IMG/VR virus record: IMGVR_UViG_3300022200_008215
Location: 1-53,868 of that record
Length of the DNA stretch: 53,868 nucleotides
Source: a virus
Reading direction: 5' to 3' (one strand)
In this document: in pieces, positions 12,301 through 34,591 of the stretch
How the letters are laid out: each line of letters begins with the position of its first letter
Position numbering within the stretch: the first letter of the stretch is position 1
Notes under the pieces: generated by a model
Told to the model about the DNA's origin: nothing
Database searches by the model: none
Seen by the model: the letters and a program-made list of their open reading frames with translations, nothing else
Translations under genes and position numbers: made by a program

Positions 12301-13878
12301 CTATACTGTTTCTAGATCTGATACGAAAATACGACCGTAAAATTCTGGTCTAAGCATTTTCTTCGCATATCTGGTCATAATTCCTTTGCGGGGAGTAAAA
12401 GTATCTGGATCGTATACTAGTGGTGTCATCATTAATGGCACGTAAGGAGCATACACAGCACCTGTTTCCAAGAATTGAGAACCTCTGTAACCCATAAGGA
12501 TTGTGTTTTCAGTCATGTAAGGGTTTTTGTATACTTTGTAACGTCCGTTTAATGCACCTACTTTTTGTACACCAAATGCAAAATCCATTTTGTCACCGTC
12601 AGTGTTTGCAGCATATCCAGGAATTGATTCTAGGATTGTAGCTACAGTTGGAGAACATACTAAGAAGTTAGCTCCGCCACGTAAAGTTTTTTGGTGGATT
12701 TTGTTAGATACTTTTTGGATTTTAGTTCCTAAAGTTTGGAACCATTGTCCTTGGGTATTATAGAAATCTGAACTAGCTGTTGACCATGTAGTCCCATTCC
12801 ATAATTTATTATTAAGGGCTGACCATCTTTCAGTTGTTACAGCATCTTGTATTAACATATCTAAGATCTCTAAGTCAATCTCCATAGAGATATATTCAGA
12901 TAAGATAGATGTTAATTCAGCTTCTGCATCAATAGAATGATAAGCGTTAAGATCCTGAGCAAATTCTGGGGTCCATTGTGCTTTTAATTTTCTTGTTTTA
13001 GCAACAATTGATTCAGAAGCAAGCTGTACATTAATTTCTGGTATCACGATTGAACCACCTGGATTATCTTCGAAGTCACCTCTTGTGTTATCAGTTGGCT
13101 GGTTGTGGTATAATACAGATCCTGTTATAGAGGCAACTACTGTCAAAGCACTTCCTGTTACTACGAAAGTAACTGTATCTCCTGATACTGTAGTAAGCTC
13201 TGGGTTTGAAGTTACATCTACAGATGATGAGTAAAGACGGAAAGCTCTAACTGCTTCGTGATCGAAAGAAGAGACAGATGCCATATTTACTGCTACTGTT
13301 TTGAATCCTGATAATAGTAAATCATCGTTGTATGCGATAGAGGCTGAGGTTGCAGCTGCTGTTACTTGTTGTACTGCGAGTGATCCTGAGTTGATTGAGT
13401 ATCCGAAAGCTCCTGCACCGTAAAGGCCGCCAGAAACTTCTTCATCAACAGTCATCTTATCATTAGCAGTAGATACGTTACCGTATAAATTACTGTTAAG
13501 ATCTTTGGTACGTCCTCCAGTACCATATTTAAAATCTAAATAGAATACTAGTCCTGAAGGTAGATTCATTGGCTGTACAGATACGAAATCTTTAGCAGCA
13601 ATTTGAGCGAATACCTTACGCACTAGTGGTAGAGCTACTCCTGCCCACTGCTCACCTTGACCAGCGGAAAAACTACCTCCTCCTACGTTAGTACTTGATT
13701 GTTCTGATACAATCTGTTTTGCTTGATTCTCAAGAATCATAGCCATGTTGTTTCTTTCATTCTCATTAGAGAGTCCCTCTAATAAGCCTGTTTTAGTCCA
13801 CTTCCCAGCAAGTCTAGCTGAATCAGCTTGTAGAGACTTGTAGTTATTTGCACCTTCCAATAATTGATTTAATTCCAT
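12301..13878 (-). CDS. 23: Major capsid protein (gp23)
   Basis: A 525-residue T4-type major head protein. The N-terminus MELNQLLEG, then TKTGLLEGL (about 28-36) and NNMAMILENQAKQIV (about 43-57), is the pattern of gp23 precursors in T4-like phages. The core has the VFYLDFKYG, VAKTRKLKAQWTPEFAQDLNA (first 20 residues VAKTRKLKAQWTPEFAQDLN) and FLVCSPTVATIL elements. T4 gp23 loses its first 65 residues to the gp21 protease at an LxE-type site. Here (I/L)LE sites lie at residues 6-8, 32-34 and 49-51. It follows gp22 by 27 bp and ends before a UUCG terminator. The leader has no Shine-Dalgarno site but an A-run (AAAAAAACCACAC). Confidence 0.95.
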   Translation of the reverse strand: MELNQLLEGANNYKSLQADSARLAGKWTKTGLLEGLSNENERNNMAMILENQAKQIVSEQSSTNVGGGSFSAGQGEQWAGVALPLVRKVFAQIAAKDFVSVQPMNLPSGLVFYLDFKYGTGGRTKDLNSNLYGNVSTANDKMTVDEEVSGGLYGAGAFGYSINSGSLAVQQVTAAATSASIAYNDDLLLSGFKTVAVNMASVSSFDHEAVRAFRLYSSSVDVTSNPELTTVSGDTVTFVVTGSALTVVASITGSVLYHNQPTDNTRGDFEDNPGGSIVIPEINVQLASESIVAKTRKLKAQWTPEFAQDLNAYHSIDAEAELTSILSEYISMEIDLEILDMLIQDAVTTERWSALNNKLWNGTTWSTASSDFYNTQGQWFQTLGTKIQKVSNKIHQKTLRGGANFLVCSPTVATILESIPGYAANTDGDKMDFAFGVQKVGALNGRYKVYKNPYMTENTILMGYRGSQFLETGAVYAPYVPLMMTPLVYDPDTFTPRKGIMTRYAKKMLRPEFYGRIFVSDLETV

Positions 13879-15219: not shown

Positions 15220-15879
15220 CTACTTTAAAGCTTTGAGAACTGCCTCTTTTACTACTCTTTCTCTCTTAGTTAGTCCTTCGTATAATGATTCGTAAGCTAA
15301 TTGGTGTATTTCATCACTCATCTCGTCATTGAGCTGATCTATCTCTTCATCTGTTAATGGGGTACCGTCTTCAAATTCGGCATACTCTATATAGGCATCA
15401 GAAAAGTCTGGGTAATCTGATGTATCTATGTTTGCTATGCTTATACTTCCTTTATCTACTCTAGAGCTTACCTTGTCTTCTTCCGATAAGTTATTTTTTG
15501 ATATATCAACTCCTTGAGTCATCTTGTTGAAATGTTCTGGTTCATGTTTTTTTAAAGCAGCAATATAGTGCTCCGTCTCACGTGGATTCATTTCTTCGAC
15601 TCCGTCTATATCATCGTAATCTGTTTCTCCGTAGGAACCTCCAGCATATCCCTTATATGCTTTTCCTGTACTTGGACTATATCCTAATAGCTCAACATCA
15701 TACCCTTCAAGATCATCTGAAGATTGGTCCATTTGGTTAAATGTACCCTGGCTAGCGGTTTGTTCGTCTTCATCTGTCCAAACTATATCGTTTGGAATAG
15801 TTTGTTCGTTTATTGTTCTTGAAGTAGAAGTCAACTTATTTTCTACTAAAAATTTTCTAAGGTCAAAATTGTTTTCCAT
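15220..15879 (-). CDS. Acidic head-assembly-region protein with (I/L)xE leader
   Basis: A 219-residue acidic protein between the prohead protease and the scaffold. It begins MENNFDLRKFLVEN, an (I/L)xE-terminated leader, with a second site at INEQ (about 24-27) and a third at LSEE. Residues about 60-120 are Gly/Tyr/Asp-rich, and the last 60 residues form acidic then basic helices (ending VVKEAVLKALK). In T4 the corresponding interval holds small prohead core proteins (gp67, gp68). The acidic nature and position suggest a core or internal head protein here too, but I see no sequence match. Its start lies 3 bp after the gp21 stop. Confidence 0.6.
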   Translation of the reverse strand: MENNFDLRKFLVENKLTSTSRTINEQTIPNDIVWTDEDEQTASQGTFNQMDQSSDDLEGYDVELLGYSPSTGKAYKGYAGGSYGETDYDDIDGVEEMNPRETEHYIAALKKHEPEHFNKMTQGVDISKNNLSEEDKVSSRVDKGSISIANIDTSDYPDFSDAYIEYAEFEDGTPLTDEEIDQLNDEMSDEIHQLAYESLYEGLTKRERVVKEAVLKALK

Positions 15880-15881: not shown

Positions 15882-16460
15882 CTATGCTCTTAATATTTCG
15901 TTGATTATTGAATTGATTTTTGTGTACTTATTTTCAGGGAGTTTTCCTTCGTTTAAGGATACTGGGTTCATGAAAGCTCCCTGTGTGGAAGGATTGGAGA
16001 CGAAATCCCAGCAGACTAATTCAAAGTCTTGCTGTACCTCTAATGTTCCTTCGTTTGTTTGTTGTACTGATCCTGTACCCCTAGAAGAGATTCCTATAGT
16101 ATGTCCTGCTTTTATAATTTCTTTGACAATATTTCCTACAGGTGTATTGAGTAGTTCAATTCTTCCTTTTAGCTCATCACCATCCCACCACAGGTCTTTT
16201 ACTACGTGGGAAGCATTTTTTAAAGATACTACAGCTGATTCCGGATGATCTAATTCTCCAAAAGCATTTCCATTTTTTACGAACTCATTCATATACTTCT
16301 TACACTCTCTTTCAAGCAAGGTCTTGTCGTATACTCGTCCGTTTTGGTTTTTAGCTCCTGCTCTTTGTAAAACTCCTTCTACTTCGTATACCCCCGGCCT
16401 TTCTTTAGACTCCCTGAGTATTGATTTAAATGGTGTTATTTCTACTAATAGGTTGTTCAT
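15882..16460 (-). CDS. 21: Prohead maturation protease (gp21)
   Basis: A 192-residue peptidase of the T4 gp21 type. Conserved blocks are RAGAKNQNGRVYDKTLLE (33-50), FGELDHPE (67-74) with the catalytic His72, GISSRGTGSV (123-132) with the catalytic Ser125/126, and WDFVSNPS (151-158). T4 gp21 cuts head proteins after (L/I)xE. I use the ATG at 16460, which falls 2 bp after the stop of the preceding gene; an upstream extension to 16547 would add 29 residues not seen in the family. It begins MNNLLVE and has SILRE, SLNEG and IINEI sites, so it may process itself as T4 gp21 does. It is the likely processor of all proposed cargo proteins. Confidence 0.92.
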   Translation of the reverse strand: MNNLLVEITPFKSILRESKERPGVYEVEGVLQRAGAKNQNGRVYDKTLLERECKKYMNEFVKNGNAFGELDHPESAVVSLKNASHVVKDLWWDGDELKGRIELLNTPVGNIVKEIIKAGHTIGISSRGTGSVQQTNEGTLEVQQDFELVCWDFVSNPSTQGAFMNPVSLNEGKLPENKYTKINSIINEILRA

Positions 16461-18889: not shown

Positions 18890-20821
18890 TTAATTATCTA
18901 AATCTGTAATCTGGGATTCATTTAGTAAATTACTAGTGTCTTCTTCCTGTTTTTCGAAGATTATCTGCTTAGTATCTCTGAACATCTTTTGGTTTTGTAA
19001 AAACACTGTCTGTGCCATCGTATTATTTACCTCTCTCTCTTTCTGTATTTCATTTACATTTTCATTGTCAGAAGGATATCCTCCTTTCATTCCTTGTTTC
19101 CCTAGTGGATCCCTACCTCCCAGTCCGTCATTTGTTCCGTAATGTGATGCATGAGTTTTAGGTCTTCCTCCTTCAGGTCCGATCTCTCCTATTCGAGGCG
19201 GTGTAGGATGATCTTCATAGCCTGCAGGAACATCCCCGAAATATGTACCCTTATCTCCTTTTCCTGCTCTTCTACCGTATAGAGTAGCTAGATCATGAGG
19301 TGTACCGTATGACTTACCGGATTTAGCAGGATCGTTTCCTTCGTTTTCAATCTGACCCAGTCTAAATGTTCGCTTGTAGTCTTCAGTTACTAGGTTTCTC
19401 ATTTCCATGTACCTGTCTTCTGATAAGTTGAAAATATTATCATATATATAATCAGTAGGAAATAATTTAGTATTTAACATTTGTGCTGCTAAATCAACTT
19501 TCTCTTTCATTAATGCTACTTTCTCTTGTTCAAATATGATTGAAGGATTTGTAAGCTTAATTTCAAAGTTAGTTAACGATTCTCCTTTAAATCCTTGAGC
19601 ATATAAATGAACTAAAGCTATCTTAGTTAGCTCAGATTCCAGGATTTTCTGCAATCTCTCTACGGTTCTTGCAAACCTAATGTCTTCAGCTGCTAAAGTT
19701 GCTTTACCTGAAAGATCACCTTCGTATCCGAAATATGCTTTAGGTACCTTAAGTGCAGCAAACATCTTGTCTCTTAAGTACTCTACATCACTAATCCCGT
19801 CATACTGTAGTCCGGGGGTGCTTTCTATCTTAGTTTGCGTATCACCTCCTCTTACTGGAATATAAAAATCTTCCATCATATTCATCATATTGAAGCGTAG
19901 GTTGTACTCTCCTGTTTGAGGGTCAATATGCGGTGTTTTCTTCATAGTGTTGATAGTCTTCTGCATAAACTGCTCAACTTCATTTGGTGGAATTTGTCCT
20001 ACGTTTATATAGAAGGTTCTCTTATCTGGAGCTCTCATAACGCGGTGGATTAACATCGCATCTTCCATTAAGGTTAACTGTTTCCATACCTTTCTTGCAG
20101 GTTCGATATAAGAGCGTCCATAAGGTAGGTAGTTTGTATCTGATATTAGTCTAAAGTGTGCTATTTCGTAGTTGTCAAATTCTATAACTTTTCTATTATC
20201 TCTAGGAATGTAGTTCGGATCTTGTGAAGATGCTAATCCGTCAGGATCTAGTTGAAAAGTTACCTTAGCAGGTTCTGTTGGATCCATCCCCTCATGTCTT
20301 GTCATATGGTACACAGTGTACGGAAGTACATTATATACTCCAAATTCTTCAGCTATTTCTAATTTTAAGAAAAAGTCACCGTATTTGCACATATTCCTTG
20401 TCCAGGACCATAGGTTGAATTCTATATTTAAAATATCGTAGAATAAATTGTAAAGCACTCTTTGCATGTTTTCATCTGAGGACTTTATTGATAGAACTTC
20501 GTTTTGATCGTTCTTTAAAGTTGCTTCATCCGCTAAGATATCTAAAGTAGATGCAAGTAGGGGATCGGTGTCCATAGCTTCGTAATCAGAGTAGAGCTGT
20601 ATACGGAGTGTTTGATAGTTGAGATTTGGATTAAATACATTTTTATTATTGTAAATATATAATCTAGAAAATCTATCTATTAAAGAGTTTGTTTGATAGC
20701 GTCCTGTGGATTGTATTTGATTTACATCAGCTACCCTTAATTGGTCACCGCCTACGTTTCTTATTACTACGTCAGAAGAGAATAATCTCCCTAACCTTTT
20801 AAATAGTGAAGTATCTGCCAT
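18890..20821 (-). CDS. 20: Portal protein (gp20)
   Basis: A 643-residue T4-type portal vertex protein. Diagnostic segments are YRxYxxMDTDPxLASTLDILADE (here DYEAMDTDPLLASTLDILAD), RAPDKRTFYINVGQIPPNEVEQ (DKRTFYINVGQIPPNEVEQF within) and the FAALKVPKAYFGYEGDLSG block near residues 360-378. Twelve copies form the head vertex through which DNA enters and to which the neck binds. The C-terminal 130 residues are Gly/Pro-rich and probably disordered, ending with acidic residues. It follows the terminase gene by 26 bp, whereas in T4 genes 18 and 19 lie between. No Shine-Dalgarno site; a variant motif ATATTTATTAATAA precedes the ATG. Confidence 0.95.
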   Translation of the reverse strand: MADTSLFKRLGRLFSSDVVIRNVGGDQLRVADVNQIQSTGRYQTNSLIDRFSRLYIYNNKNVFNPNLNYQTLRIQLYSDYEAMDTDPLLASTLDILADEATLKNDQNEVLSIKSSDENMQRVLYNLFYDILNIEFNLWSWTRNMCKYGDFFLKLEIAEEFGVYNVLPYTVYHMTRHEGMDPTEPAKVTFQLDPDGLASSQDPNYIPRDNRKVIEFDNYEIAHFRLISDTNYLPYGRSYIEPARKVWKQLTLMEDAMLIHRVMRAPDKRTFYINVGQIPPNEVEQFMQKTINTMKKTPHIDPQTGEYNLRFNMMNMMEDFYIPVRGGDTQTKIESTPGLQYDGISDVEYLRDKMFAALKVPKAYFGYEGDLSGKATLAAEDIRFARTVERLQKILESELTKIALVHLYAQGFKGESLTNFEIKLTNPSIIFEQEKVALMKEKVDLAAQMLNTKLFPTDYIYDNIFNLSEDRYMEMRNLVTEDYKRTFRLGQIENEGNDPAKSGKSYGTPHDLATLYGRRAGKGDKGTYFGDVPAGYEDHPTPPRIGEIGPEGGRPKTHASHYGTNDGLGGRDPLGKQGMKGGYPSDNENVNEIQKEREVNNTMAQTVFLQNQKMFRDTKQIIFEKQEEDTSNLLNESQITDLDN

Positions 20822-20847: not shown

Positions 20848-22422
20848 TTATTTAAGTATCCACGACACATCTTCGTGTCCATATGGTGTCTTTACAATAT
20901 ACGGACTACTTTGCGAGTTATCAACTGAAAAGATTGCATTGTTTTTTGCATTTAAATTAGTGAAGGATGAGAGTTGGGCTCTAGCGAGGTCCATTCCTTG
21001 CTGTCTTAACCTTAAAGCTGTATCTCTCACGTATAGTGCAGTAGCACAAGACATTATTAGATCATCATTATAGTTTGTCTGTGCTTGAGCTCTTCCATTT
21101 TTCCAAACAAAAACTCTCATCTCTCCCATTGTTCGTTTTGATTGAATGATTACTGATTTTTCTCGCACATATTCCATCATTTTTGCTAGAACAAGAGGTC
21201 TTGTTTTCATAGACATTGTGAAGCCGGGTACTAGTTGGTCTCTTTCATACTTTGTCATATAAGATTCAACTGTGTCCATTTGACTCTTTGGACTATAGTA
21301 TAAGTTTCTATATTCTCTCTCCATTATCTGTTCGATAGTAGCCCACCCTATATTTGCATTTTCACAAACTAGAAGTGCATCATTATATTCAGAACTTATT
21401 CCTACAAGCACGTTCCCAAAATCTTTTGGAGATATTTTTCCTTTGTATTCCCCTACTTGTATAGCATCCTCTATGTTGAATATATGAAAAGCAGAGTAGT
21501 CGGCAGAATCCCCTCTAGCAACATCCGCTACAACCATATACGATTTCGTGTAGTCAGGTTGTTCCCATATCCATAGGTTACTGTCTACTCCTCTTTTTTC
21601 GATAGGGTCTCTTTGGTATGTTTGTTCGTAAAACATTAAGTCTTCTGGTTCGAATACTGTATCACCCGATGCTAGGAAATCACAGTCACATTCCTGTCCT
21701 GCCATTCTAGGTCCTAGGTCTTTATCTTGTTGCTCTCTCCAGGCCTGGTTTCTTTCTGGGTGTACTGTCCAGGGGAGTTTTATAGGGATAAAAGAGTTTT
21801 CTCCTGTTTCTGCTTTTTCCCAAGTCAGGTGGAACCAGTTACCAATACCGTTGGGAGTTGAGAGAGCCATACATTGACCTCCTGTAGCAAGTGTCTGCTG
21901 TGCAGCAGCGAAAGTTTCATCAATATTATCTATGAACGCTGCTTCATCTATAAGTAACAGGGAAACTGCTTCAGATCTAGCTGCATCCGAGTTGGATGAT
22001 TTAGCTTGTATTTTTGATCCGTTTTTGAGTCTCAGGGATAATTTATTTTTTTCTACTGATGGTAGTTTTAACCATTTAGGTAATTCATCATACATGAAAA
22101 TTACCTTTGTTACTAGGTTCCTTGCTGTAGCTTGGGTAGTTGCTAATGCTAGTACGTTTTTATCTTTATGGAAGAGCATTAGCCAAAGGGAGTATGCTGA
22201 TGCTAAGGTAGAGATTCCTAGTTGTCTAGATTTAAGAGTAATGAGGTATTGGTGATCTCTAAATAGATGTAGTACTTCTGCTTGGAATGGGTATAAATTA
22301 AATAAAATTCTACCCCTAGTTGGATGCTGTATATGGCAATACTTCTTCATGAAGTATGCAGGGTCTTTTGCACATTTAATATACTCTTGTGTGATTATTT
22401 TTTTGATATCACTATTCTGCAT
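20848..22422 (-). CDS. 17: Terminase large subunit (gp17)
   Basis: A 524-residue DNA-packaging motor. The ATPase has a Walker A variant SRQLGIST (65-72), Walker B LLLIDEAAF (155-163, with D159 and E160) and coupling motif STP (188-190). The nuclease domain has acidic residues D300 (VVADVARG), E354 (LVCENANIG) and D453/D454 (YNDDLIMS), in the order expected for T4 gp17 RNase H-type headful nucleases. Length is somewhat shorter than T4 gp17 (610 residues). It is the first gene after a terminator and a TATTTATA motif 19 nt before the start, so it begins the head operon. No small terminase (gp16) could be recognised upstream. Confidence 0.96.
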   Translation of the reverse strand: MQNSDIKKIITQEYIKCAKDPAYFMKKYCHIQHPTRGRILFNLYPFQAEVLHLFRDHQYLITLKSRQLGISTLASAYSLWLMLFHKDKNVLALATTQATARNLVTKVIFMYDELPKWLKLPSVEKNKLSLRLKNGSKIQAKSSNSDAARSEAVSLLLIDEAAFIDNIDETFAAAQQTLATGGQCMALSTPNGIGNWFHLTWEKAETGENSFIPIKLPWTVHPERNQAWREQQDKDLGPRMAGQECDCDFLASGDTVFEPEDLMFYEQTYQRDPIEKRGVDSNLWIWEQPDYTKSYMVVADVARGDSADYSAFHIFNIEDAIQVGEYKGKISPKDFGNVLVGISSEYNDALLVCENANIGWATIEQIMEREYRNLYYSPKSQMDTVESYMTKYERDQLVPGFTMSMKTRPLVLAKMMEYVREKSVIIQSKRTMGEMRVFVWKNGRAQAQTNYNDDLIMSCATALYVRDTALRLRQQGMDLARAQLSSFTNLNAKNNAIFSVDNSQSSPYIVKTPYGHEDVSWILK

Positions 22423-23772: not shown

Positions 23773-23791
23773 AGTTCTGTTATTTTAAATA

Positions 23792-23813
23792 GACCTAAAT
23801 ATACGAAATATAT
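23792..23813 (-). promoter_or_regulatory. Class-2 upstream motif (before 405-aa gene)
   Basis: Minus strand reads ATATATTTCGTATATTTAGG followed by TC, ending about 20 nt before the TTG start at 23772. It shares TATATTTAGGTC with the copy at 31589-31610. Confidence 0.4.
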
Positions 23814-23846
23814 ATTTAATAGCCAACTATTCTATCTCTCCGTACT

Positions 23847-24080
23847 CTATTCTAAGTTTGTATTTAACTCGTCTGTAAATAGTTTATAAGTATGCCTACC
23901 GTACTCATCTCTTAGAACTATTGCTACTGCTTTTGCAAAGTCTCCGTAACTCATACTGTCGTCAATACTAACTATTGCGCTGTTTATTTTAGCTGCTAGT
24001 TCTAGTACTTTTCTTGCCTCTGATGGCTTGTTTCCAAAGGGTAATTCTTCTCCCTCGTTTAAAATATCTATAAGTTTCAT
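23847..24080 (-). CDS. Small protein with capsid-targeting-like leader
   Basis: A 77-residue protein. The first nine residues, MKLIDILNE, followed by Gly, form an amphipathic leader ending in LNE, the same design as at 33831, 34175 and 10339. The rest is a small mixed alpha/beta domain (ARKVLELAAKINSAIVSIDD, then YGDFAKAVAIVL and a Tyr/Leu-rich end). No enzyme motif is visible. It follows the 205-residue gene after 5 bp and shares the same operon. If the leader is a targeting peptide cut by gp21, the mature product would be about 68 residues and carried in the head. Confidence 0.55.
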   Translation of the reverse strand: MKLIDILNEGEELPFGNKPSEARKVLELAAKINSAIVSIDDSMSYGDFAKAVAIVLRDEYGRHTYKLFTDELNTNLE

Positions 24081-24085
24081 ATATA

Positions 24086-24703: not shown

Positions 24704-24706
24704 CTT

Positions 24707-26863
24707 TTACTTATTTTTGCAATGCTTTGGGTTACTTTTAGAAAGGTAAGGTTTTTTACATTCCGTTGATTTCTTGTGAACTCTTCCACATCTTCCACAA
24801 CAGGTTGCTTTTTCCTCGTTTAACTTCTGTTCTTTTTTTGAATCTCCTTCTAATAATTCTCCTCCTTCATAGGAAACTACTGTATTATCTGAATCATACC
24901 AATCTTCGACTCTATACCCACCATTAGGTAGTTTATTTACATGCTGTACATATCCTTGTTCGCTCTCTTTCCTAGCTAATTCTTTCATTTTACTTAAACT
25001 GTCTGAACTCTCTTCCTTAATTTCTTTATTTCTTTCTAATTTAACATCACCACTTGTAGTTAAAATCATTGATGCAGAGGTAGCACCATTTCCTTTATCA
25101 TATGATACAGAAACAAAATTTTCTACTGTTTTTGTTTTTGATTGTTTATTTTCTGCAAATAAGTCAAGATTTGTATCTACTACCTCTATATCATTTCCAC
25201 CAAAATCTTCTAATGCATCGTAGGCTGTTTCTTCTGAACTAAAGTAATAACTATCTGACCCGTTGTATATTACTTCTTTATAATATTTGTCATCTAAGAT
25301 CATTATAGCTTTTCTAGCATCTCTTACAGCTACCTTAATATAGTATACTCCTTTAGGGGCTTCGTTAATATTTCCAAGGTCTAACTTTATTCCTATTTTC
25401 TTTGCTGCTTTAAGAACTCCTGGTCTCAACCTGTCTTGATCAGACCTAGAAGCTTTTTTATATATATCAAATAAGGTAAGGTATCTCTGTCTTGGAGTCT
25501 CTTCACCAATTTCTGCTTCATTTATTTTTTTAGGTTTTTTCTCGGCTTTCAACATAGCTGTCATTTTTTTAATTTTTAGCTGTTGGTCCATTGGAAGTTG
25601 AGCTAATCTATCTTCTTCTTTTGCTTTAGCCCATTCTTCTTCAGACATACCCTCAGACATTTCTCTTTGAAGTTGATTAATGTAAGCATTAGCATCTCCT
25701 TCACTACCTTTAATGGTTTTTACTTTTTTACCATTTTTAAAAATATCGTATACACCTTTACTTAGGTATTTTTTAGTGTAAGTAGGTTTTTCTGGTTTGC
25801 TTTTCTCATATCCTTTTGGATCGTGAAACATTCCAATTTCATCTAAACTTACTATAGAATCGATTTCAGGTTCTTTAAGTTCAAAATCAAGGTAATGTTT
25901 AGCACCTACTATTGCAGTTTTAGCATTAGTAATTTTAGCCTGCCACCAAGCCGGAAAATCTACTTCACCAACACCCTCAAACTGATCTACCATTTTATAA
26001 AGTTCCATAGCATATTTTCCAATACGATATAGGTCTGCTTTTAACATATGTGGTTCGTTGTCTTCGTGTCCTAAATCTAGATCTTCATTTAAACCATAAG
26101 AACTAGCATTATCTATGAATCCTTGAAAGAATCCTTTTCTATATGCTTGGTGGTCTGGTTTGTTTTTAAATCTACCTTTAATTTTTTCAAATGCTTCTTC
26201 ACCAGCTTCATACCCCATTTCTTCAATATCAGCTAAGCCAATATTTTCTTCATATTCATCAGCTCCTACTTCGATATCTTTCGAATATTCCTGTTCGTTT
26301 AAAGAATTAAAGTATTTAACAAGATTATTTTTTACTAAATCTTTGTGAACTAGCGGCTCTCCAGATGGCTTAATTCCTACTTCGCCAATTTCTTTATCAA
26401 ATGAATCATCAACTAGGTGTAGAATACCTCCAGTTATGTAAAATGAAAACTCATCTTCAAAGTTGTTTTTGTACTCTATATAAATAGTAAATGAGTTAGA
26501 CATTATATCTTTTACTGTACCTCTTGCTACTTCATCTCCGACTTCTCTCAAAGCACTTACTAGTGTCTTTGCAATTTCCAGGGCTATAACTCTTGTCTCT
26601 TCGACTGAATATTCAATTTCCTGTTGCTCGCTTTTTAGCTTAACAGTCACATCAGGATTGTCTTTAGAGAATTCAGCTGCTTTTTTTTCATCTTCAAATT
26701 CTACAGCTTCTAGCTTTCTTTCTAAAGATTCTTTAAGTAGTTCTAATTTTTTTTTAGATATTAGCATACTTTGTTGTGAAAGTTTTCCTAACCCTCTGTC
26801 TTTAATTATATTTAGTGCAATTTTGCATTTTGATACACGTTCTTGAATTTCTTGATAAGTCAT
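24707..26863 (-). CDS. Large modular protein, possible gp21-processed polyprotein
   Basis: A 718-residue protein built of unlike modules joined by (I/L)NE or LLE motifs: LNE at 188-190, LNE at 258-260, INE|A at 447-450, INE|A at 499-502, LLE|G at 670-673 and LNE|E at 681-684. After 260 comes DLDLGHEDNEPHMLKADLYR (261-280) and a domain with WWQAKI, a block I recall as widespread in T4-like marine phages. The C-terminal 34 residues are a Cys-rich zinc-ribbon-like unit (CCGRCG at 688-693, C702, HC at 714-715). The N-terminal 115 residues are helical. The motifs match the T4 gp21 cleavage rule, so maturation into several peptides is proposed. Start chosen at ATG 26863, 26 nt after a TATTTATA motif. 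Function unknown. Confidence 0.65.
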   Translation of the reverse strand: MTYQEIQERVSKCKIALNIIKDRGLGKLSQQSMLISKKKLELLKESLERKLEAVEFEDEKKAAEFSKDNPDVTVKLKSEQQEIEYSVEETRVIALEIAKTLVSALREVGDEVARGTVKDIMSNSFTIYIEYKNNFEDEFSFYITGGILHLVDDSFDKEIGEVGIKPSGEPLVHKDLVKNNLVKYFNSLNEQEYSKDIEVGADEYEENIGLADIEEMGYEAGEEAFEKIKGRFKNKPDHQAYRKGFFQGFIDNASSYGLNEDLDLGHEDNEPHMLKADLYRIGKYAMELYKMVDQFEGVGEVDFPAWWQAKITNAKTAIVGAKHYLDFELKEPEIDSIVSLDEIGMFHDPKGYEKSKPEKPTYTKKYLSKGVYDIFKNGKKVKTIKGSEGDANAYINQLQREMSEGMSEEEWAKAKEEDRLAQLPMDQQLKIKKMTAMLKAEKKPKKINEAEIGEETPRQRYLTLFDIYKKASRSDQDRLRPGVLKAAKKIGIKLDLGNINEAPKGVYYIKVAVRDARKAIMILDDKYYKEVIYNGSDSYYFSSEETAYDALEDFGGNDIEVVDTNLDLFAENKQSKTKTVENFVSVSYDKGNGATSASMILTTSGDVKLERNKEIKEESSDSLSKMKELARKESEQGYVQHVNKLPNGGYRVEDWYDSDNTVVSYEGGELLEGDSKKEQKLNEEKATCCGRCGRVHKKSTECKKPYLSKSNPKHCKNK

Positions 26864-26889
26864 TGGTTTTGATATTTAAAAGCTATAAT

Positions 26890-26897
26890 TATAAATA
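26890..26897 (-). promoter_or_regulatory. Candidate late promoter motif TATTTATA (before 718-aa gene)
   Basis: Minus strand reads TATATTTATAATT, 26 nt before the ATG at 26863. Confidence 0.4.
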
Positions 26898-26900
26898 TAC

Positions 26901-27479
26901 CTATTTTATGTGTTCTGATAGGTGTGTTATATACTGCTTGATATTTTTTAATATTTTCTTTTTTTCTGAGTTGTTAGATTTCCAATCTTCTATATCCCCC
27001 TGTTCTGTAATAAAAGTATCTTGTGAATTAACTGTCTCTAGAGCCCACTGTTCTATATCTTTTACAAAGAGTTTCATACTGCCTTGCATCATTCTTTGTT
27101 CATACTGCTCAAATAGTCCTGCTTTCCTTAAGTCGGCTTCGTACTCTACAGTACATGGATCAAAACAAAACCCATGAATTTTGTACATTTTTTGAGCTAA
27201 GTGATGTTTCATCGGACCTCCGCAGTTAGGGCACCTTAGTGGTATACGAACAGCTTTTTTAGCTGCATCTAATTTTGTAACATTTTGTTTAATTCCGTTT
27301 TTAATTGTCCAATTTTTACCTGATTCTTCCCAAATATCACCCTCCTTGTATTTGCCTATTATTTTTTTGTAACCTGTTTGAGCTTTTGTTTTAGCTGTAT
27401 AGTCTTTATTAACTATATTCCTGACTCTCTGTACATCTCTTTGTTTAAATTCTTTCTTTAGTAACGATTCCTTACTCAT
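26901..27479 (-). CDS. Zinc-ribbon-like phage protein, unknown function
   Basis: A 192-residue basic protein. Residues about 80-115 hold CPNCGGPMKHHLAQKMYKIH then GFCFDPCTVEYEADL, giving Cys at two CxxC-like positions (CPNC and C-x3-C) that could bind zinc. The first 60 residues are Lys-rich and probably nucleic-acid contacting; the last 50 are acidic then basic helix. The pattern is one I associate with unnamed proteins of T4-like marine phages. It overlaps the HAD gene stop by 8 bp, so it is co-translated with it. Function not known; a late transcription or DNA-binding factor would fit but has no direct support. Confidence 0.6.
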   Translation of the reverse strand: MSKESLLKKEFKQRDVQRVRNIVNKDYTAKTKAQTGYKKIIGKYKEGDIWEESGKNWTIKNGIKQNVTKLDAAKKAVRIPLRCPNCGGPMKHHLAQKMYKIHGFCFDPCTVEYEADLRKAGLFEQYEQRMMQGSMKLFVKDIEQWALETVNSQDTFITEQGDIEDWKSNNSEKKKILKNIKQYITHLSEHIK

Positions 27480-28005
27480 ACTTTAATTCTTTTAATTTTT
27501 CTATAACATAATCTACATTTCCGTCTTTACATCTTATAGCAATTCCGCCTTTCGATATCCATTCTTCAATATTTGATTTTTTATCATCTATTAGAATTGA
27601 ATTCTCGTTAGCATATCTCTGCTTATCTTTTGAGTAAGCAAATATCACTTTTGGAGATGAAGGTATATTTTGTCTAACCCATAGGTTTTTTCCTAGTCTT
27701 GAGTTATTATGTCTTGAAGGAGATGTCAAAATTTGCGGGCTGTAAGGTTCTATAAAATTCCACAGTCTCTGTCCTTGAGGCATCCAGGGCATTTCTGACC
27801 AGAATTTGATACCTACTTCTCCGTCTATGATATTCCAAAAAGCTGCGGATCCAAATTCATCTTCATACTCTTTTGGATTGCTGTATCCTGTGTAGTGCTC
27901 AAACCTTGTTTCGAAGTCAGTTAATACTCCGTCCATATCACAGTAGATATTATACGGAGGCATAGTTTCTGATTTTTCTAATAACAAATCTTTTAGTTTT
28001 CCCAT
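27472..28005 (-). CDS. HAD-family phosphatase, 5'(3')-deoxyribonucleotidase-like
   Basis: A 177-residue HAD-fold hydrolase. Motif I is DMDGVLTDF (23-31) with nucleophile D23 and acid D25, motif II is probably LTSPS (93-97), and ILIDDKKSNIEEW holds the motif IV acidic pair. The overall plan matches small nucleotide phosphatases of the NT5C type, which dephosphorylate (deoxy)nucleoside monophosphates. A ten-residue extension, MGKLKDLLLE, precedes the domain and ends in LLE; ordinary NT5C-like enzymes start close to motif I. That leader is of the capsid-targeting type proposed here, so the enzyme may be carried in the virion. Overlaps the next gene by 8 bp and follows the 881-residue gene by 8 bp. 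Confidence 0.8.
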   Translation of the reverse strand: MGKLKDLLLEKSETMPPYNIYCDMDGVLTDFETRFEHYTGYSNPKEYEDEFGSAAFWNIIDGEVGIKFWSEMPWMPQGQRLWNFIEPYSPQILTSPSRHNNSRLGKNLWVRQNIPSSPKVIFAYSKDKQRYANENSILIDDKKSNIEEWISKGGIAIRCKDGNVDYVIEKLKELKYE

Positions 28006-28013
28006 ACCTTTTT

Positions 28014-30659
28014 TTACAGCAGTTGTCTTATTCCTAATGCTGGTAGTCTTTTACGCCATAGGGTAAGTATTTTTTCTTTTTGACTTGGTGTTATATCTTG
28101 TGAGTCTATATACCTGTTCACTACATCAGCAAAGGGTTTCTTTTCTTTTTTAGCCCTTAAGAGTAGTCCTTGTAAATTTGCATCTACCTCTTTTTCAAGC
28201 TCTAAATATTGATTAGCTCTTGATTTTTTTGATTTTATCCAAGCTCTTCTTTCAAGATCGTCTGCCATTCCTTTATTGGGGTTAGCAGTATCGCTTCCTA
28301 TGTTATGTGTTAGGTGTTCTATTTCATGTCTAACAATATCCTTTAATGTCATAGAAATCTCTTCCCATATTTCTGGTAGGAGTTGTTCATCTACTTCTAC
28401 ATCTATTCTAATGAAATCTCCTTCGTTGTCTGTACCTGCTCCTGTTGTCTCAATAACATCCATTGTCCCCGTATCGAATGTTAATTCTATTGTAGCTTCT
28501 ACATCGAAATTTGCTCCTAAACCTTCATAGTTGTCTTTATATTGAAACCCGTCTTCTCCTTCATCTACGGCTTGTTTCCATGCTTTGAAGATATTTGAGG
28601 ATATTGTATTTGTAAGTTTATCGTATTTACCTTCTGCCATCACTTCTTTTTTTTTACCATTTTTAATCTCATCTTCCCAGTTCCTGAAAGTTATATTCCC
28701 TTCTAAGTATGCTTCTTTTTCTATCTCTATTAAGTTACTATCTTCATTTGTATTAGTAGTTCCTACGGAACCTAATCTACCTTCTAAATTCTGTTTATGA
28801 TGAATCATCTCATGTGTAAAAGATCTCATTACATCTTTAGGGTGTCTTCCTTCTACGTAGAGAACTACTTCTTTCTTATTAGGGTCGTAGAATGCTGTAC
28901 GTCCAAAGAAATCACTTGATTCTGCTATATCTCTCCTAATTTTGACTTCAGGTAAGGGAGTTACTTTCATCTTTTGATCTATCATATACTCTAAAATAGA
29001 GCCCATATATGGTGTGTAATCAAAGCCAACTCTTTCTCCTTCTTTTTTATTCCGAACTGTTATACTATCTCCATTGAATACTATATCGTAGTACTCGTCC
29101 CCGAGTAGGGTAAGTAGTTTCTTATATACGGTAACTAGCATTGCTCTATCTTTTGACGCAATAACGCTTTTTGGAGCTATTGCTGTTCCGGAAGAACCTT
29201 CTTTAACTAATTGATTAGTGTTAAAAAGTTCGTGTAGTGTTTTATCTAAAGCTTCTTGCATTTGTATCTCTTTTTCTGATGGTGCACGCATTGCTGCTAT
29301 GTTTATACTTCTTTCTTTATCTGAGTTGTTTATTTCCTGTGGTGTCCATTCCCCGCTTTTTAAGTACCTGACAGAATTTCTTATTGAGTTAGCAGAAAAT
29401 TTACTGTCCTCTTCTCCTTCTCTTGGTAACTCTAATATTTCAACTGTTGGATATTTTTCTTTATTTTTTATAAAATAGTCAAACCTTTTTGCTTCTTCGG
29501 GAAGAGTTCCTGTTATGATTTTAGAATAGCTATTTTGATTATCATCTACAAAAGTATAAATGTCTCTTATGGGGGTTACTTCTGATAGGATTATATCAAC
29601 CGGTATCGGAAGGTATTTGGCATAAATTTCCCAAATACTCTTAGATTGTTCAGCGCTAATTCTTACTCCTTCTCGTACTTTAGGTCCTATAAATATAACC
29701 AACCTGTCTACTTTATCTGCTAAAAATTTTGCATTATTAAAATGAGCTTTGTGAGGTGGTTTAAATCCTCCGGCGTATAGTCCTACTGTTTTACCTTGCT
29801 CATCCTCTAGTATAGTATTTACTGTCTGTAGTGCTTTTTCTTTCCCTGCTCCTTTAGGTGTCCCCACTTCCCCTGATTTTACTGATACCATACTATTAAA
29901 AACACCTTTAATTCTTTCTTTTGATCTTGGATTTTTTACTTTAGATTTAATATCTTGTAGTAAATCTTCGAATGTTCCGTCTATGTTATAGTTTTTAAAA
30001 AGTTCTCTTATTAGTCCCCAATTTGTTGTACTCCATAGATCTTCTCTAGCAACTGTTTTGAAATCTTTTAATTTTACTTTCCTTAAAGTTAGTTTATTTG
30101 AACTTAAATTGAACTCTAATTCTTCATCTGGTGTAAGCTGTGGTACATCATTTATGCTTAATCTCTTGAGCAGTTCAACTGGGTTTTCTTCTAGTAGAAT
30201 AACTTTTACTAGTCCTAATAACAGTCCTTGTTTTTCGGCTGGTAGATCTAAGAAGCTATTTTTAAATGCATGTTCTTCGTCTGATAGTGATATGATATTA
30301 TCTACTTGTATGTATTTATCTTGCTGACCTGTAATTGGAAAGAGGATAGTAATTATTTCTCCAGAGTTGTAGTATTTTTTACCTGAATATTTTTCACTCT
30401 TAAAAGGAACTATAACGCTATCAGGTTCCGAAGTTACTGTTTTAATTATTCTCTGTTTAACTTCTTTCTTATCTTCTCCTTCGAATTGAACAATTAAGTC
30501 GAGGTCTCCAAAATCCGGCTTACTTCCTGCTTTAACACTTCCAGATAGTGATGCTTTTTTGAATCCTGGTATCTTTTCTAGAACATCTTTTACGTACTTA
30601 TCGAAAGTACGTTTAACATCTTTCTTTTCTATTCTCTGACCTCCGGCTACACCTGACAT
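28014..30659 (-). CDS. Multi-enzyme protein: nucleotidyltransferase, NMNAT-like adenylyltransferase, two HExxH domains
   Basis: An 881-residue protein. Residues 1-270 hold a pol-beta-type nucleotidyltransferase, GS (40-41) with D52-x-D54 and a third Asp near 120. Residues 291-435 are a cytidylyltransferase/NMNAT-like domain with GGFKPPHKAH (297-306) and SANSIR (422-427), close to the signature of NMN or pantetheine-phosphate adenylyltransferases. Residues about 490-660 carry a zinc-protease-like HEMIH (616-620). Residues 677-881 carry a second HEIEH (778-782). The boundaries coincide with ILE|D (283-286), LVKE|G (484-488) and VMAE|G (673-677), which look like gp21 sites, most convincingly the first. 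A phage NMNAT could rebuild NAD+ against NAD-depleting defences, but substrate is not proven. Domains intact; polyprotein status inferred. Confidence 0.75.
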   Translation of the reverse strand: MSGVAGGQRIEKKDVKRTFDKYVKDVLEKIPGFKKASLSGSVKAGSKPDFGDLDLIVQFEGEDKKEVKQRIIKTVTSEPDSVIVPFKSEKYSGKKYYNSGEIITILFPITGQQDKYIQVDNIISLSDEEHAFKNSFLDLPAEKQGLLLGLVKVILLEENPVELLKRLSINDVPQLTPDEELEFNLSSNKLTLRKVKLKDFKTVAREDLWSTTNWGLIRELFKNYNIDGTFEDLLQDIKSKVKNPRSKERIKGVFNSMVSVKSGEVGTPKGAGKEKALQTVNTILEDEQGKTVGLYAGGFKPPHKAHFNNAKFLADKVDRLVIFIGPKVREGVRISAEQSKSIWEIYAKYLPIPVDIILSEVTPIRDIYTFVDDNQNSYSKIITGTLPEEAKRFDYFIKNKEKYPTVEILELPREGEEDSKFSANSIRNSVRYLKSGEWTPQEINNSDKERSINIAAMRAPSEKEIQMQEALDKTLHELFNTNQLVKEGSSGTAIAPKSVIASKDRAMLVTVYKKLLTLLGDEYYDIVFNGDSITVRNKKEGERVGFDYTPYMGSILEYMIDQKMKVTPLPEVKIRRDIAESSDFFGRTAFYDPNKKEVVLYVEGRHPKDVMRSFTHEMIHHKQNLEGRLGSVGTTNTNEDSNLIEIEKEAYLEGNITFRNWEDEIKNGKKKEVMAEGKYDKLTNTISSNIFKAWKQAVDEGEDGFQYKDNYEGLGANFDVEATIELTFDTGTMDVIETTGAGTDNEGDFIRIDVEVDEQLLPEIWEEISMTLKDIVRHEIEHLTHNIGSDTANPNKGMADDLERRAWIKSKKSRANQYLELEKEVDANLQGLLLRAKKEKKPFADVVNRYIDSQDITPSQKEKILTLWRKRLPALGIRQLL

Positions 30660-30660
30660 T

Positions 30661-31572
30661 TTATACTGTTTTATATTTAGTTAAATTCGATTCATCCGGT
30701 AGGAATTTACCTTTAAGTGTTAATCTGTCTTGGTTTTCTATCCAATACGATTGTAAATCTTCGGGAATATCTGCTCTAGTACTGTCTAATATTTTTAAGT
30801 ACCTGTCGTATACACCATTCAAATCCTCTGTAGATAATCCCGCTTCTAATGTCTCTATTAATTTAAAGTAATCTCCAGCAGTCTCTTTATCTAACTTAAT
30901 ATTATATAACTTATTTAAAAGTTCTATAGCCTGTTGTGGACTATTAGCTACTATCTCTTGAGTTTCTTTATCTTTAACTCCATAATTGTGTGAAAAGGTA
31001 TATCCCTTATGTGAAAATAGAGCAACAATAAGTTGAGTTCTATGTAATCCTTTTACATTTCCTGAATAGGTAGTGGAGTGGTATGCAAAGGAAAGCCAGT
31101 CTACGTCTCCCACGTTTATATCTATCTGTACGTTATCACCTACTTCTTCTTTATTTTCATCAAACTGTGGAAATAAGAGGAATAATGCTCCTGCTCCTGA
31201 GCCTTTCACATCGGCTAAGATATCGGTATTACTTTCCTCAATTTTTTGAGCTACAGAAACTATAACAGCTCTCTTCATTAGTTGATCATCAGACGATGTT
31301 CTAGCTCGTTTTTTGAAACCATCGAATAGTTTATTAATATGGTCTTGATCTAATCCCCAATCGTTAATATCGTCAAAAGATTTTCCTGATAGGGCTAAGT
31401 CAATATCCCCTGAGTAGTCTTTTTTCCCTACAGATCCTAAAGTTTTCATCTCTCTAAAAAATGGTTCTGCTTTAGGAAAAATTGCTTTAAATTGCTTGAA
31501 AAATTCAAACAATGTAGGTTTTATATTCTCTTTTTTAATTGAAGCAGTATTATTAAAAACGTTACCTCCCAT
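30661..31572 (-). CDS. Pol-beta-type nucleotidyltransferase
   Basis: A 303-residue protein with the nucleotidyltransferase signature: TLGSVGKKDYSGDIDLALSG (44-63), that is GS followed by D56-x-D58, and a third acidic strand VQIDINVGDVDW near residue 149. A His-rich segment, FAYHSTTYSGNVKGLHR, follows. The next gene starts with a second domain of the same superfamily, so this is a tandem pair. Members transfer nucleotides to tRNA, antibiotics or proteins, and the MNT group includes toxin-antitoxin proteins; the substrate here is unknown. Upstream lies a class-2 motif ending 19 nt before the ATG and, further up, a TATTTATA motif. No (I/L)xE leader at the start. Confidence 0.75.
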   Translation of the reverse strand: MGGNVFNNTASIKKENIKPTLFEFFKQFKAIFPKAEPFFREMKTLGSVGKKDYSGDIDLALSGKSFDDINDWGLDQDHINKLFDGFKKRARTSSDDQLMKRAVIVSVAQKIEESNTDILADVKGSGAGALFLLFPQFDENKEEVGDNVQIDINVGDVDWLSFAYHSTTYSGNVKGLHRTQLIVALFSHKGYTFSHNYGVKDKETQEIVANSPQQAIELLNKLYNIKLDKETAGDYFKLIETLEAGLSTEDLNGVYDRYLKILDSTRADIPEDLQSYWIENQDRLTLKGKFLPDESNLTKYKTV

Positions 31573-31588
31573 ACTAATTTATTTTATT

Positions 31589-31610
31589 GACCTAAATATA
31601 TGAATTTATT
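31589..31610 (-). promoter_or_regulatory. Class-2 upstream motif (before nucleotidyltransferase)
   Basis: Minus strand reads AATAAATTCATATATTTAGG then TC, ending about 17-19 nt before the ATG at 31572. It is the fullest copy of the motif and nearly identical to the one at 6696-6713, with the same spacing. Confidence 0.45.
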
Positions 31611-31633
31611 TTAGATCTACCAACTATTTTATT

Positions 31634-31641
31634 TATAAATA
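31634..31641 (-). promoter_or_regulatory. TATTTATA motif (upstream of nucleotidyltransferase)
   Basis: Minus strand reads ACTATTTATAAAT, 61 nt before the ATG at 31572. The sequence is nearly palindromic here (TATTTATAAATA). The nucleotidyltransferase unit may thus have both motif classes. Confidence 0.3.
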
Positions 31642-31644
31642 GTA

Positions 31645-32427
31645 TTAAAGTTTAATGGAAGTAGGGTAAGACTTATATTTAGGTTTAACAGATGGGTTTT
31701 CTAATAAGTATAGTTTCTGTATTAGCTTAAATAATTCAAAATTTTCTTCAATTTCATCTATTACTTTAATCTGCCATCCTGCCCCTTGTATAACTTCCTT
31801 TTGTTTTGAAGGTCCCCTAGTACTTGCTTTTAACCAAATAATTCCTGTCCTTTGTATTTTAATTCCTTTCATCTCTTCTAGTGCTCTTGCATAAGCGGAT
31901 AATTGAAGATCATAGGATTTATGTAAGCTGTTGGATGTTTTTATATCCAGCAACCAAACTTCGCCGTGCATTTTAACAACTAGATCCGCTGTTCCTGCAT
32001 ACTTATGGGTATCAGAGTATACGAAGTCTTCTGCTGATATTAATTCTGGTTTATTTTCTTTCCAGAATTCTGTAAATTTAAGGATCATGCTCCAGACTAA
32101 TTCGCTGTACTTAGCTTTGCCGTAATCATCCATCCAGTGTACTTCTTCTCCTAGTACTAACCTTTCGGCAGCTTCGTGTACCTGGGTCCCTTCTTTACCT
32201 GCTTTCTGCATAATAATATCAGAATTATGTCCTACATCTTTTAGCCAAGTTTCAAAGAATCTATTTTTTGGCATATACTGTAGTATCGTCGTAACTGATG
32301 GATAGTAAGTATCTTCTCTTCTTTTGTAAACTCTGTTATCTAAGAAGTTGATTTGTTGTAATTTCCCATCAAAAGTTAACCGGTCTTTGGCATGTTCTTT
32401 TAAAATGTCTGTACCTTGTTTGATCAT
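31645..32427 (-). CDS. RecB/Cas4-like PD-(D/E)xK nuclease
   Basis: A 260-residue exonuclease-like protein. Motifs in order are GTQVH (80-84), GTADLVV (145-151, with D148), LLDIKTS (159-165, with D161 and K163) and LQLSAYA (174-180). This is the RecB-type nuclease set: metal-binding His, Asp, Asp and catalytic Lys, then the QxxxY-like helix. It suggests a DNA end-processing or recombination role. The ATG overlaps the stop of the primase gene (ATGA), so the two are translated together as a replication pair within a mostly structural region. No helicase domain is attached. Confidence 0.88.
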   Translation of the reverse strand: MIKQGTDILKEHAKDRLTFDGKLQQINFLDNRVYKRREDTYYPSVTTILQYMPKNRFFETWLKDVGHNSDIIMQKAGKEGTQVHEAAERLVLGEEVHWMDDYGKAKYSELVWSMILKFTEFWKENKPELISAEDFVYSDTHKYAGTADLVVKMHGEVWLLDIKTSNSLHKSYDLQLSAYARALEEMKGIKIQRTGIIWLKASTRGPSKQKEVIQGAGWQIKVIDEIEENFELFKLIQKLYLLENPSVKPKYKSYPTSIKL

Positions 32428-33350: not shown

Positions 33351-33377
33351 ACTTAACAGTTATTATCTTAATATAAG

Positions 33378-33401
33378 AAAAAAGTTGCAATTAAGCAACT
33401 T
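33378..33401 (-). terminator. Rho-independent terminator before primase
   Basis: Minus strand: AAGTTGC-TTAATT-GCAACTT followed by TTTTC. The stem overlaps the stop codon of the kinase-like gene. Strong candidate. Confidence 0.88.
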
Positions 33402-33831
33402 ATACGTCTGTCATTTTTAATTTCCCAGATTTAGGGTTGATCATAAAATTATCCGGCCTTATATCTAATTCATCAGAAGGTATTCCTAATCTTTTTGCTT
33501 CCGCTTCTAAGGCATCTATAAAGTCTTCAGGAATTTCTCCTTTAAATTCCCCCATAACGTCCATTGTAATTACTCCTAACTTATCCCCTAACCTACTAAC
33601 ATCGTAAATGAAGACAAAATTATTTGTTTTTTTTCCTTTAAGCAGCTCAGCATGATCTAATTCAACTTCGTCAGTTGTTACCTTTACCGCTTTACCGTCA
33701 AGTAGATATACAGAACCGTAATCCCCTGAGCCTAAGTATTTTCCTCCTCTATCTTGTATTTTATCTATCTGTTTATTAAAAGCAGGATCATATTCTATCG
33801 GACCTTCTAATATTATTTGCGATAGTTTCAC
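33400..33831 (-). CDS. Miniature protein-kinase-like protein with capsid-targeting-like leader
   Basis: A 143-residue protein. It starts MKLSQIILE then Gly, an (I/L)xE leader. The body carries protein kinase landmarks in order: a glycine-rich loop GSGDYGSVY (34-42), a VAIK-type AVKVT with K50, a hinge-like VITMDVMGE (87-95), a catalytic-loop-like LDIRPDNFMIN (122-132, with D123 and N128) and a terminal TD (141-142) where DFG would be. No activation loop or C-lobe follows; the protein ends there. It may be a minimal kinase, a kinase-derived binding module or a degenerate relative. Overlaps the 114-residue gene by 1 bp and ends in a terminator. The leader suggests packaging in the head and delivery into the host. 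Confidence 0.6.
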   Translation of the reverse strand: MKLSQIILEGPIEYDPAFNKQIDKIQDRGGKYLGSGDYGSVYLLDGKAVKVTTDEVELDHAELLKGKKTNNFVFIYDVSRLGDKLGVITMDVMGEFKGEIPEDFIDALEAEAKRLGIPSDELDIRPDNFMINPKSGKLKMTDV

Positions 33832-34175
33832 TACAGGTCTCTTAAATTAAAATTAAAACCAATTGACGGGTATATTCTCCTCTCTCCTGGTTCATTTTCA
33901 TAAGTACTAGTTGTACTTGTAATTGCAAAATGCTTATCTTCTAAGAATCTTGTTATTTCATTGAATAGCTCTTTCGGAAGGTCTTCCCGTACTATAAATT
34001 CTAGTTTTCCAAACCCTTTTCCAAGTAATTTATCTCCTTTTTCACGATCTTGTGAATACTGGTTCATTGTTAAGTTAGGTTTGTACTGTCCGTACCTTTT
34101 TGTTAGTTCGGCCTGCAGCATTTCTAAAGTATTGTCAGATTCCCCGTACTCTAGTATTATTTTTACTAATTTCAT
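33831..34175 (-). CDS. Small protein with capsid-targeting-like leader
   Basis: A 114-residue protein starting MKLVKIILE then Tyr, almost the same leader as its downstream neighbour (MKLSQIILE). The remainder is an alpha/beta domain: LEMLQAELTKRYGQYKPN, GFGKLEFIVREDLPKELFNEI and a final strand IGFNFNLRDL. No catalytic motif is recognised. Its start overlaps the 45-residue gene (ATGA) and its stop overlaps the kinase-like gene. If the leader is cleaved after ILE, the mature protein would be 105 residues. Function unknown; the pairing with the kinase-like gene suggests a shared fate in the virion. Confidence 0.55.
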   Translation of the reverse strand: MKLVKIILEYGESDNTLEMLQAELTKRYGQYKPNLTMNQYSQDREKGDKLLGKGFGKLEFIVREDLPKELFNEITRFLEDKHFAITSTTSTYENEPGERRIYPSIGFNFNLRDL

Positions 34176-34309
34176 GATCCTTGTCCTTTATAAAGCTTTT
34201 TATAATTCTTAGAATTTTTAAGCTTTGATGTTTTTGATTTTGCGTGAACTCCTGGTCTTTTTCTTTTGGTCTTTTCGTGAGCACCTCCAGTTACGTTATT
34301 TTTAGCCAA
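34172..34309 (-). CDS. Small basic phage protein, 45 residues
   Basis: A short frame from TTG at 34309 to TGA at 34172. The protein starts MAKNNVTGGAHEKTKRKRPG and continues with a Lys/Ser-rich stretch to KLYKGQGS. The motif GAHxKTKRKRPGVHAKxKTSK followed by KNYKKxYxGQG is one I have seen as a separate small conserved protein in many T4-like phages of marine origin. It overlaps its upstream neighbour by 8 bp and its downstream neighbour by 4 bp (ATGA), which supports real translation despite the TTG start. Highly basic, so probably DNA- or RNA-binding; a DNA-condensing head protein is possible. No function is established to my knowledge. Confidence 0.75.
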   Translation of the reverse strand: MAKNNVTGGAHEKTKRKRPGVHAKSKTSKLKNSKNYKKLYKGQGS

Positions 34310-34568: not shown

Positions 34569-34591
34569 ATACCCCCTTTTACTGTCAATAC

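Follow-up and report, generated by a model that had tools for sequence, protein, structure and literature searches.

The subject of this report is an 881-residue protein encoded on a stretch of viral DNA of 53,868 bases, an IMG/VR fragment (positions 1 to 53,868 of record IMGVR_UViG_3300022200_008215) that is referred to below as the window. Comparison with related viral proteins suggests that the protein is probably a late, head-packaged precursor that is cut by the phage's own gp21-type prohead protease. Leader-like capsid-targeting segments lying inside the chain, around residues 270-285 and probably 460-487, may draw the precursor into the prohead core, and gp21 would cut after hydrophobic-x-E motifs, at residues 285 and 676 at least, and probably also in the region of 487. 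Cutting would release a nucleotidyltransferase (NTase), an enzyme of the adenylyl/cytidylyltransferase superfamily and two zincin-like domains, which might then be ejected with the DNA into the next bacterium as early effectors, and the family would evolve by the joining and swapping of modules at the cut sites. Throughout the text a slash within a sequence marks the putative point of cleavage.

The gene occupies a single unbroken frame at positions 28014-30659 on the minus strand, the plus strand carrying many stops; the original prediction had given the same uninterrupted frame and left the strand unstated. The motifs that it had quoted were found at the residues given, namely G40S41 with D52xD54, GGFKPPHKAH (297-306), SANSIR (422-427), HEMIH (616-620) and HEIEH (778-782), as were the three candidate protease sites ILE/D (285 and 286), LVKE/G (487 and 488) and VMAE/G (676 and 677). 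The virus is a T4-like phage, probably of marine Bacteroidetes, and the gene sits in its late/head block, with gp17, gp20, gp21 and gp23 all at most 18 kb away. Among isolates, Flavobacterium phage immuto is nearest, and its gene 183 (QQO91862.1) is a full-length orthologue with 57% identity in an identical gene order. That gene is labelled only as a nicotinamide mononucleotide adenylyltransferase (NadR/NMNAT), and its sites read VVKE/G and VMAE/G against LVKE/G and VMAE/G in the window. The gp21 of the window itself carries SLNE/GK close to its C-terminus, and the gp23 proteins of the window and of immuto are alike through IVSE and diverge immediately downstream.

Two of the candidate sites are conserved among relatives. 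The first, site A, reads ILE, LLE or LAE in nine of ten distinct NTase fusions and its position is fixed, with a following linker of 5 to about 45 residues; in fusions L009, L026 and L042 a second leader-like copy occurs within this linker (NKLCKGLVESLILPFLIE/N in L026). Six stand-alone relatives open with a leader whose LxE shortly precedes the domain 2 module (MNKLSKFLLIGLLE/NES, MNRLAKSLLVGLLE/QES, MKKLVESLVNAVLE/ADE in two of them, MNSLTRSLISSFLTE/ATQ and MNSLVKSLISPFLNE/EEI); the leader in L049 reads MNQLIQELIFPFLTE/DKI, and MKKLVESLVNAVLEA provides an example of a stand-alone leader. Site B has the form [LVM]xE/G[KR]Y, with M at the third position before the cut (P3) in the window protein, and it precedes all 11 distinct C-terminal domains, including that of the stand-alone gene L082 (MGISFLLESEKLTE/GRYD). 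Conserved motifs of the (I/L)xE type lie ahead of the predicted mature parts at both 285 and 676, and where domain 2 or the C-terminal domain has stand-alone relatives, N-terminal (I/L)xE leaders are present among them. In leaderless relatives another conserved site (IIAE, IVSE or IMRE) is located about 20 residues upstream of site C, at 487.

Relatives of the protein were detected at 75 viral-contig loci. Some cover all 881 residues and some stop at about residue 667, many hold only residues 292-667, and others consist only of the HEMIHH module, down to stand-alone genes of about 140 residues; in some relatives hundreds of residues are inserted between modules. Because relatives match, end or gain inserts there, natural borders can be placed at about 285-292, 487, 545 and 667-677. 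The coincidence of such borders with the motif [ILVMF]xE was examined for 162 mosaic proteins related to the 881-residue gene and to a neighbouring gene for a 718-residue protein. Of 554 border clusters for the starts of local homology, 81 begin on the hydrophobic residue of the motif, where 13.7 were expected; of 600 for the ends, 79 close on its E (14.8 expected). Since the proteins are relatives of one another, these counts are not wholly independent. After the removal of similar contexts there remained 12 of 153 starts (3.8 expected) and 17 of 172 ends (4.3 expected), and replacing the E by any other residue yielded no enrichment of comparable degree. A broader control of 618 other proteins was enriched as well (28/311 and 21/316), because nearly all of the cases were other head-block proteins with similar joints; the control was therefore narrowed to proteins related to non-head-block genes, which gave 1/187 (2.9 expected) and 1/38 (0.6 expected).

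Leaders of the same kind cluster on head-block genes. In the complete immuto genome, 19 of 34 head-block genes have [IL]xE with the E between residues 7 and 16, as against 25 of 189 other genes (p=2.5e-7); the control motifs [IL]xD, [IL]xQ, [IL]xN and [IL]xS showed no effect and [IL]xK a weaker one (p=0.005). Moreover, unrelated genes within single contigs resemble one another at their starts, with 77 similar pairs at residues 2-12 and 13 at residues 14-24, falling to 0-3 pairs beyond residue 26; several L049 genes, for example, share a MKKSELRQIIREE-type leader. The NTase-like protein encoded next to the 881-residue gene starts MGGNVF and its relative in L042 starts MIKLIDLLREIIIVE/GGNVF, and therefore a leader has been gained or lost exactly at E/G. 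The original proposal of a head-packaged or late-made precursor thus draws its support from comparison: a multi-domain chain in the head block, gp21-type sites at its domain borders 285/286 and 676/677, and relatives with capsid-targeting-like leaders at the N-terminus.

Stand-alone relatives with T4-type leaders were present in all five cyanomyoviruses examined (MKNFHQFITE/A, MKSFLNFFSE/A, MAMRSFLTFLTE/A, MKKFSAFLTE/A and MRFLDFIKE/A), and S-SRM01 has a small HExxH gene directly upstream of the cytidylyltransferase/NMNAT-like gene. Cyanophage cytidylyltransferase/NMNAT-like proteins have been detected by mass spectrometry in virions (PMC9602691, PMC10665884), and the available parts of these two accounts do not mention targeting leaders. 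The virion proteins S-SCSM1 ORF91 and S-CREM2 gp154 share the nucleotidylyltransferase superfamily with domain 2 and carry the leaders MKSFLQFLKE/A and MKNFSSFLTE/A, respectively, but they are stand-alone proteins, unfused to NTase or zincin domains, and their homology to domain 2 is remote. When a broad leader pattern was applied to two cyanophages, it failed to single out the virion proteins; the stricter T4-position pattern, picked after that failure, occurs in 4 of 222 open reading frames (ORFs) of S-CREM2, all four of them represented in the virion proteome (p=0.0025). Three S-CREM2 virion proteins, an S-adenosylmethionine hydrolase and two hypothetical proteins (3837-5081, 10310-10546 and 107301-108014 of the S-CREM2 record, L176 and L177), start with the T4-type leaders MKDFDSFLEE, MKDLHSFLTE and MQTFSMFFSE.

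A number of observations weigh against packaging and cleavage. The 881-residue protein begins MSGVAGGQRIEKKD and lacks an N-terminal (I/L)xE leader of 10-19 residues, its leader-like segment being internal only, and to our knowledge internal targeting sequences have not been described for T4. About 17 stand-alone relatives begin directly with MIALYPGAFKPPHRGH, with no N-terminal leader. At site C the motif E/GSxGT is kept, yet only roughly half of the 21 sequences have a hydrophobic P3, so that the predicted placing of protease sites at domain borders holds well for 285 and 676 and less well for 487. For the cyanophage proteins, the mass spectrometry reports themselves caution that abundant proteins may be carried over (PMC9602691, PMC10665884), and of the five S-SCSM1 ORFs with the T4-position leader pattern only one is found in the virion, the two phages combined yielding p=0.017. 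Finally, [ILVM]xE would be present in all three linkers by chance with a probability of about 0.03, so that mere presence is weak evidence. The chance estimate and the leaderless relatives would also suit an ordinary multifunctional late enzyme, neither packaged nor cleaved, in which the E residues are linker remnants of gene fusion. We judge this to be quite improbable, since at sites A and B diverged relatives retain both P3 and the residue at the cut (P1), and it is only among head-block proteins that homology borders coincide with the motif; it is because of this conservation, and not of their mere presence, that the sites count as more than chance.

The folds of the four domains are putative assignments from motifs and profiles, and cutting at 285, 487 and 676 is predicted to produce pieces of 32.1, 23.2, 21.6 and 23.4 kDa. 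Domain 1 displays the signature of the Pol-beta superfamily NTases (GS...DxD...D), of which G40, S41, D52, D54 and the third carboxylate D120 are invariant among relatives. The Pfam family DNA_pol_B_palm is matched weakly in L042 (2e-4) and L026 (1e-4), the window protein itself gives an MTPAP-like match at 0.042, and a PDB profile search with the domain produced no meaningful match. In the HEMIHH domain (616-621), which is preceded by a GSSGT module (residues 488 to about 545) that is missing from L020, L029 and L081, H616, E617, H620, E645 and E647 are invariant in the family; in the HEIEH domain (778-782) H778, E779, H782 and a downstream Glu are invariant. PDB profile searches with these two domains gave no match to a solved structure, and in Pfam weak DUF6782/M91 matches were seen in relatives only.

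Having two HExxH domains whose third ligands are conserved, the chain could instead be a polyvalent-type protein, packaged or cytoplasmic, that either remains whole or is cleaved in cis by zincin-like domains of its own and not by gp21. In such proteins zincins and Pol-beta NTases occur together with other enzymes, and processing in cis by the zincins has been proposed (PMC5512222). There is a small but appreciable chance that this holds here, but the joints bear hydrophobic-x-E, which is the gp21 rule (PMC9026906), the same motif ends the leaders of neighbouring proteins that have no zincin domain, and the joints are common to many mosaic relatives of the 718-residue type.

Domain 2 belongs, over residues of about 290-475, to the adenylyl/cytidylyltransferase superfamily, a relationship demonstrable by profile at superfamily level only. 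In relative L042 TIGR00125 exceeds its cut-off (35 bits vs 27.7), Pfam CTP_transf_like matches at 9e-6, and the top PDB profile match is NadD (2h29, E=7e-5), ahead of MJ0541 and phosphopantetheine adenylyltransferases. Residues K300, P301, P302, H306 and R427 are kept in relatives, most of which have HxGH or TxGH at the first motif. A stand-alone relative without a leader (MSKNILLFPGGFKPFHDGH) is encoded by Prevotella phage Lak-B2 (L163:2995-3618), one of the Lak megaphages. The earlier suggestion that the domain is an NMNAT engaged in salvage of nicotinamide adenine dinucleotide (NAD+) against NAD-depleting immunity bears on what a single domain does and is compatible with packaging. In its favour, the best profile matches are nicotinate/nicotinamide mononucleotide adenylyltransferases, immuto carries the NadR annotation, and NMNAT-like proteins occur in cyanophage virions (PMC9602691). 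We nevertheless regard it as unlikely: scores fall below the NMNAT equivalog cut-offs (TIGR01527, 17.7 bits vs 181), models for pantetheine-phosphate adenylyltransferase score equally in relatives, the Gly of HxGH is replaced by Ala or Met in the immuto-type clade (HKAH, HLAH or HKMH), and the immuto annotation shows no recognisable partner gene for NAD salvage. Only membership of the superfamily is thus upheld, and the counter-immunity role is left unsupported, PADLOC giving no match. An immuto gene (100836-101273), the relative of 44396-44872 (minus strand) in the window, is annotated as an NAD synthetase; this annotation is doubtful because the sequence (GFIYEVTHIPTGKKYIGKK) resembles a GIY-YIG protein. 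Guessing from the superfamilies, the NTase might modify host proteins or RNA and domain 2 might perform nucleotide or cofactor chemistry.

Table 1. Positions of the features discussed, in window coordinates.
Feature	Position	Strand	Basis or remarks
881-residue mosaic protein, candidate precursor	28014..30659	-	intact frame; immuto orthologue 57% identity over 100%
Domain 1, putative Pol-beta-type NTase (GS, DxD, D120), residues 1-285	29805..30659	-	invariant residues; weak profile matches
Site A, ILE285/D286, candidate prohead-protease site or internal leader end	29802..29813	-	conserved [IL]xE
Domain 2, HxxH...SxxxxR adenylyl/cytidylyltransferase superfamily, residues 287-487	29199..29801	-	TIGR00125, PDB profile
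Site C, VKE487/G488, module border, weaker candidate protease site	29196..29201	-	E/GSxGT conserved
GSSGT module and putative HEMIHH zincin-like domain, residues 488-667	28659..29198	-	stand-alone relatives L050, L051, L067
Site B, MAE676/G677, candidate protease site	28629..28634	-	[LVM]xE/G[KR]Y in 11/11
Domain 4, putative HEIEH zincin-like domain, residues 677-881	28017..28631	-	motif conservation
Major capsid protein gp23, propeptide ends IVSE/	12301..13878	-	Gp23 E=1.7e-83
Protein with leader MENNFDLRKFLVE/NKLT	15220..15879	-	family recurrent in immuto
gp21-type prohead protease, candidate processing enzyme	15882..16460	-	Peptidase_S77 E=4e-35; H and S motifs retained
gp20	18890..20821		late/head block
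gp17 terminase	20848..22422		late/head block
Protein with leader MKLIDILNE/G	23847..24080	-	
718-residue neighbouring mosaic polyprotein, joints INE/A, LNE/D, LNE/E	24707..26863	-	
5'-deoxyribonucleotidase-like protein, leader MGKLKDLLLE/K	27472..28005	-	phrog_2643 2e-26
NTase-like protein, start MGGNVF	30661..31572	-	L042 relative with leader before GGNVF
Protein with leader MKLSQIILE/G, GTG start	33400..33831	-	
Protein with leader MKLVKIILE/Y	33831..34175	-	

The 718-residue neighbour is itself a mosaic. In this protein a module at about residues 258-340 (LNE/DLDLGHEDNEP...) recurs in about 75 viral contigs in ever different contexts, and its C-terminal zinc-like module reads E/EKATCCGRCGRVHKK. 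The module YE/AEYQGREVALNKPK, located at 34592-35146 (minus strand), is common to different proteins of many contigs and in relatives begins directly after hydrophobic-x-E. The protein at 33400-33831 matches a T7-type protein kinase family weakly (phrog_15752, E=0.002). At two related loci (L058:7183-7977 and L049:4859-5815) the place of the NTase-like gene at 30661 in the window is taken by zeta-toxin-like kinases (Pfam 2e-20 and 1e-10), possibly packaged, with the leader MISLVSLLKE/ or MISLIKLLKE/. Tail-type proteins with long GTSGSSGTSG repeats are encoded at 36514-38076 and 41562-43913 (minus strand). An Rfam scan of positions 22000-36000 gave no match and a tRNA search found none.

With a little more than even confidence we extend the precursor reading to the proposal that, in T4-like phages of Bacteroidetes, the prohead-protease motif serves as a universal joint, such that effector modules are strung together, packaged by way of targeting segments within the chain, cut by gp21 in the prohead and exchanged among genes by recombination exactly at the cut sites. 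If so, the injected cocktail could change fast with assembly unchanged, and hydrophobic-x-E joints would make it possible to read the packed and injected proteins of such phages off the sequence. This would supply a list of early effectors (NTases, nucleotidylyltransferases, zeta-toxin-like kinases and zincins) and would explain the recurrent NMNAT-like proteins of cyanophage virions. Descriptions of phage polyproteins that a separate prohead protease cleaves are scarce, and the literature searched yielded no multi-module chain in which prohead-protease motifs serve both as joints and as borders of recombination.

Known systems resemble the present one in part. In T4, gp21 cleaves after L/I-x-E and internal proteins reach the head via short leaders; in the IPIII leader, residues 4 and 7 serve targeting and residues 8 and 10 processing (PMC9026906). 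The internal proteins are diverse and the leader is their sole conserved part (PMC3012670). As with T4 IPI-III and Alt, short N-terminal (I/L)xE leaders are found here on many unrelated head-block proteins, gp21 is encoded by the phage and the putative cargo is varied. However, T4 cargo comprises one protein per gene with an N-terminal leader, whereas the 881-residue chain has several domains with internal leader-like segments, and because it lacks an N-terminal leader we do not class it as a T4 internal protein. The head proteins of phiKZ and SPN3US would share with the proposed precursor the Glu-directed processing of many packaged proteins by a gp21-like protease, but there long propeptides are removed, and a chain of independent enzymes is not described for them in the literature searched. 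The polyvalent proteins described by Iyer et al. (2017, PMC5512222) unite at least two disparate effector or enzymatic domains in one phage polypeptide, as the 881-residue protein does; theirs include Pol-beta NTases and zincin peptidases, to which the NTase and the putative zincin-like domains of the present chain would correspond. They are thought to be injected, and the NMNAT-like domain present here is unmentioned there; they are considered to be cut by built-in zincins or a fused assemblin-like peptidase, whereas the joints of the 881-residue protein fit a separate prohead protease.
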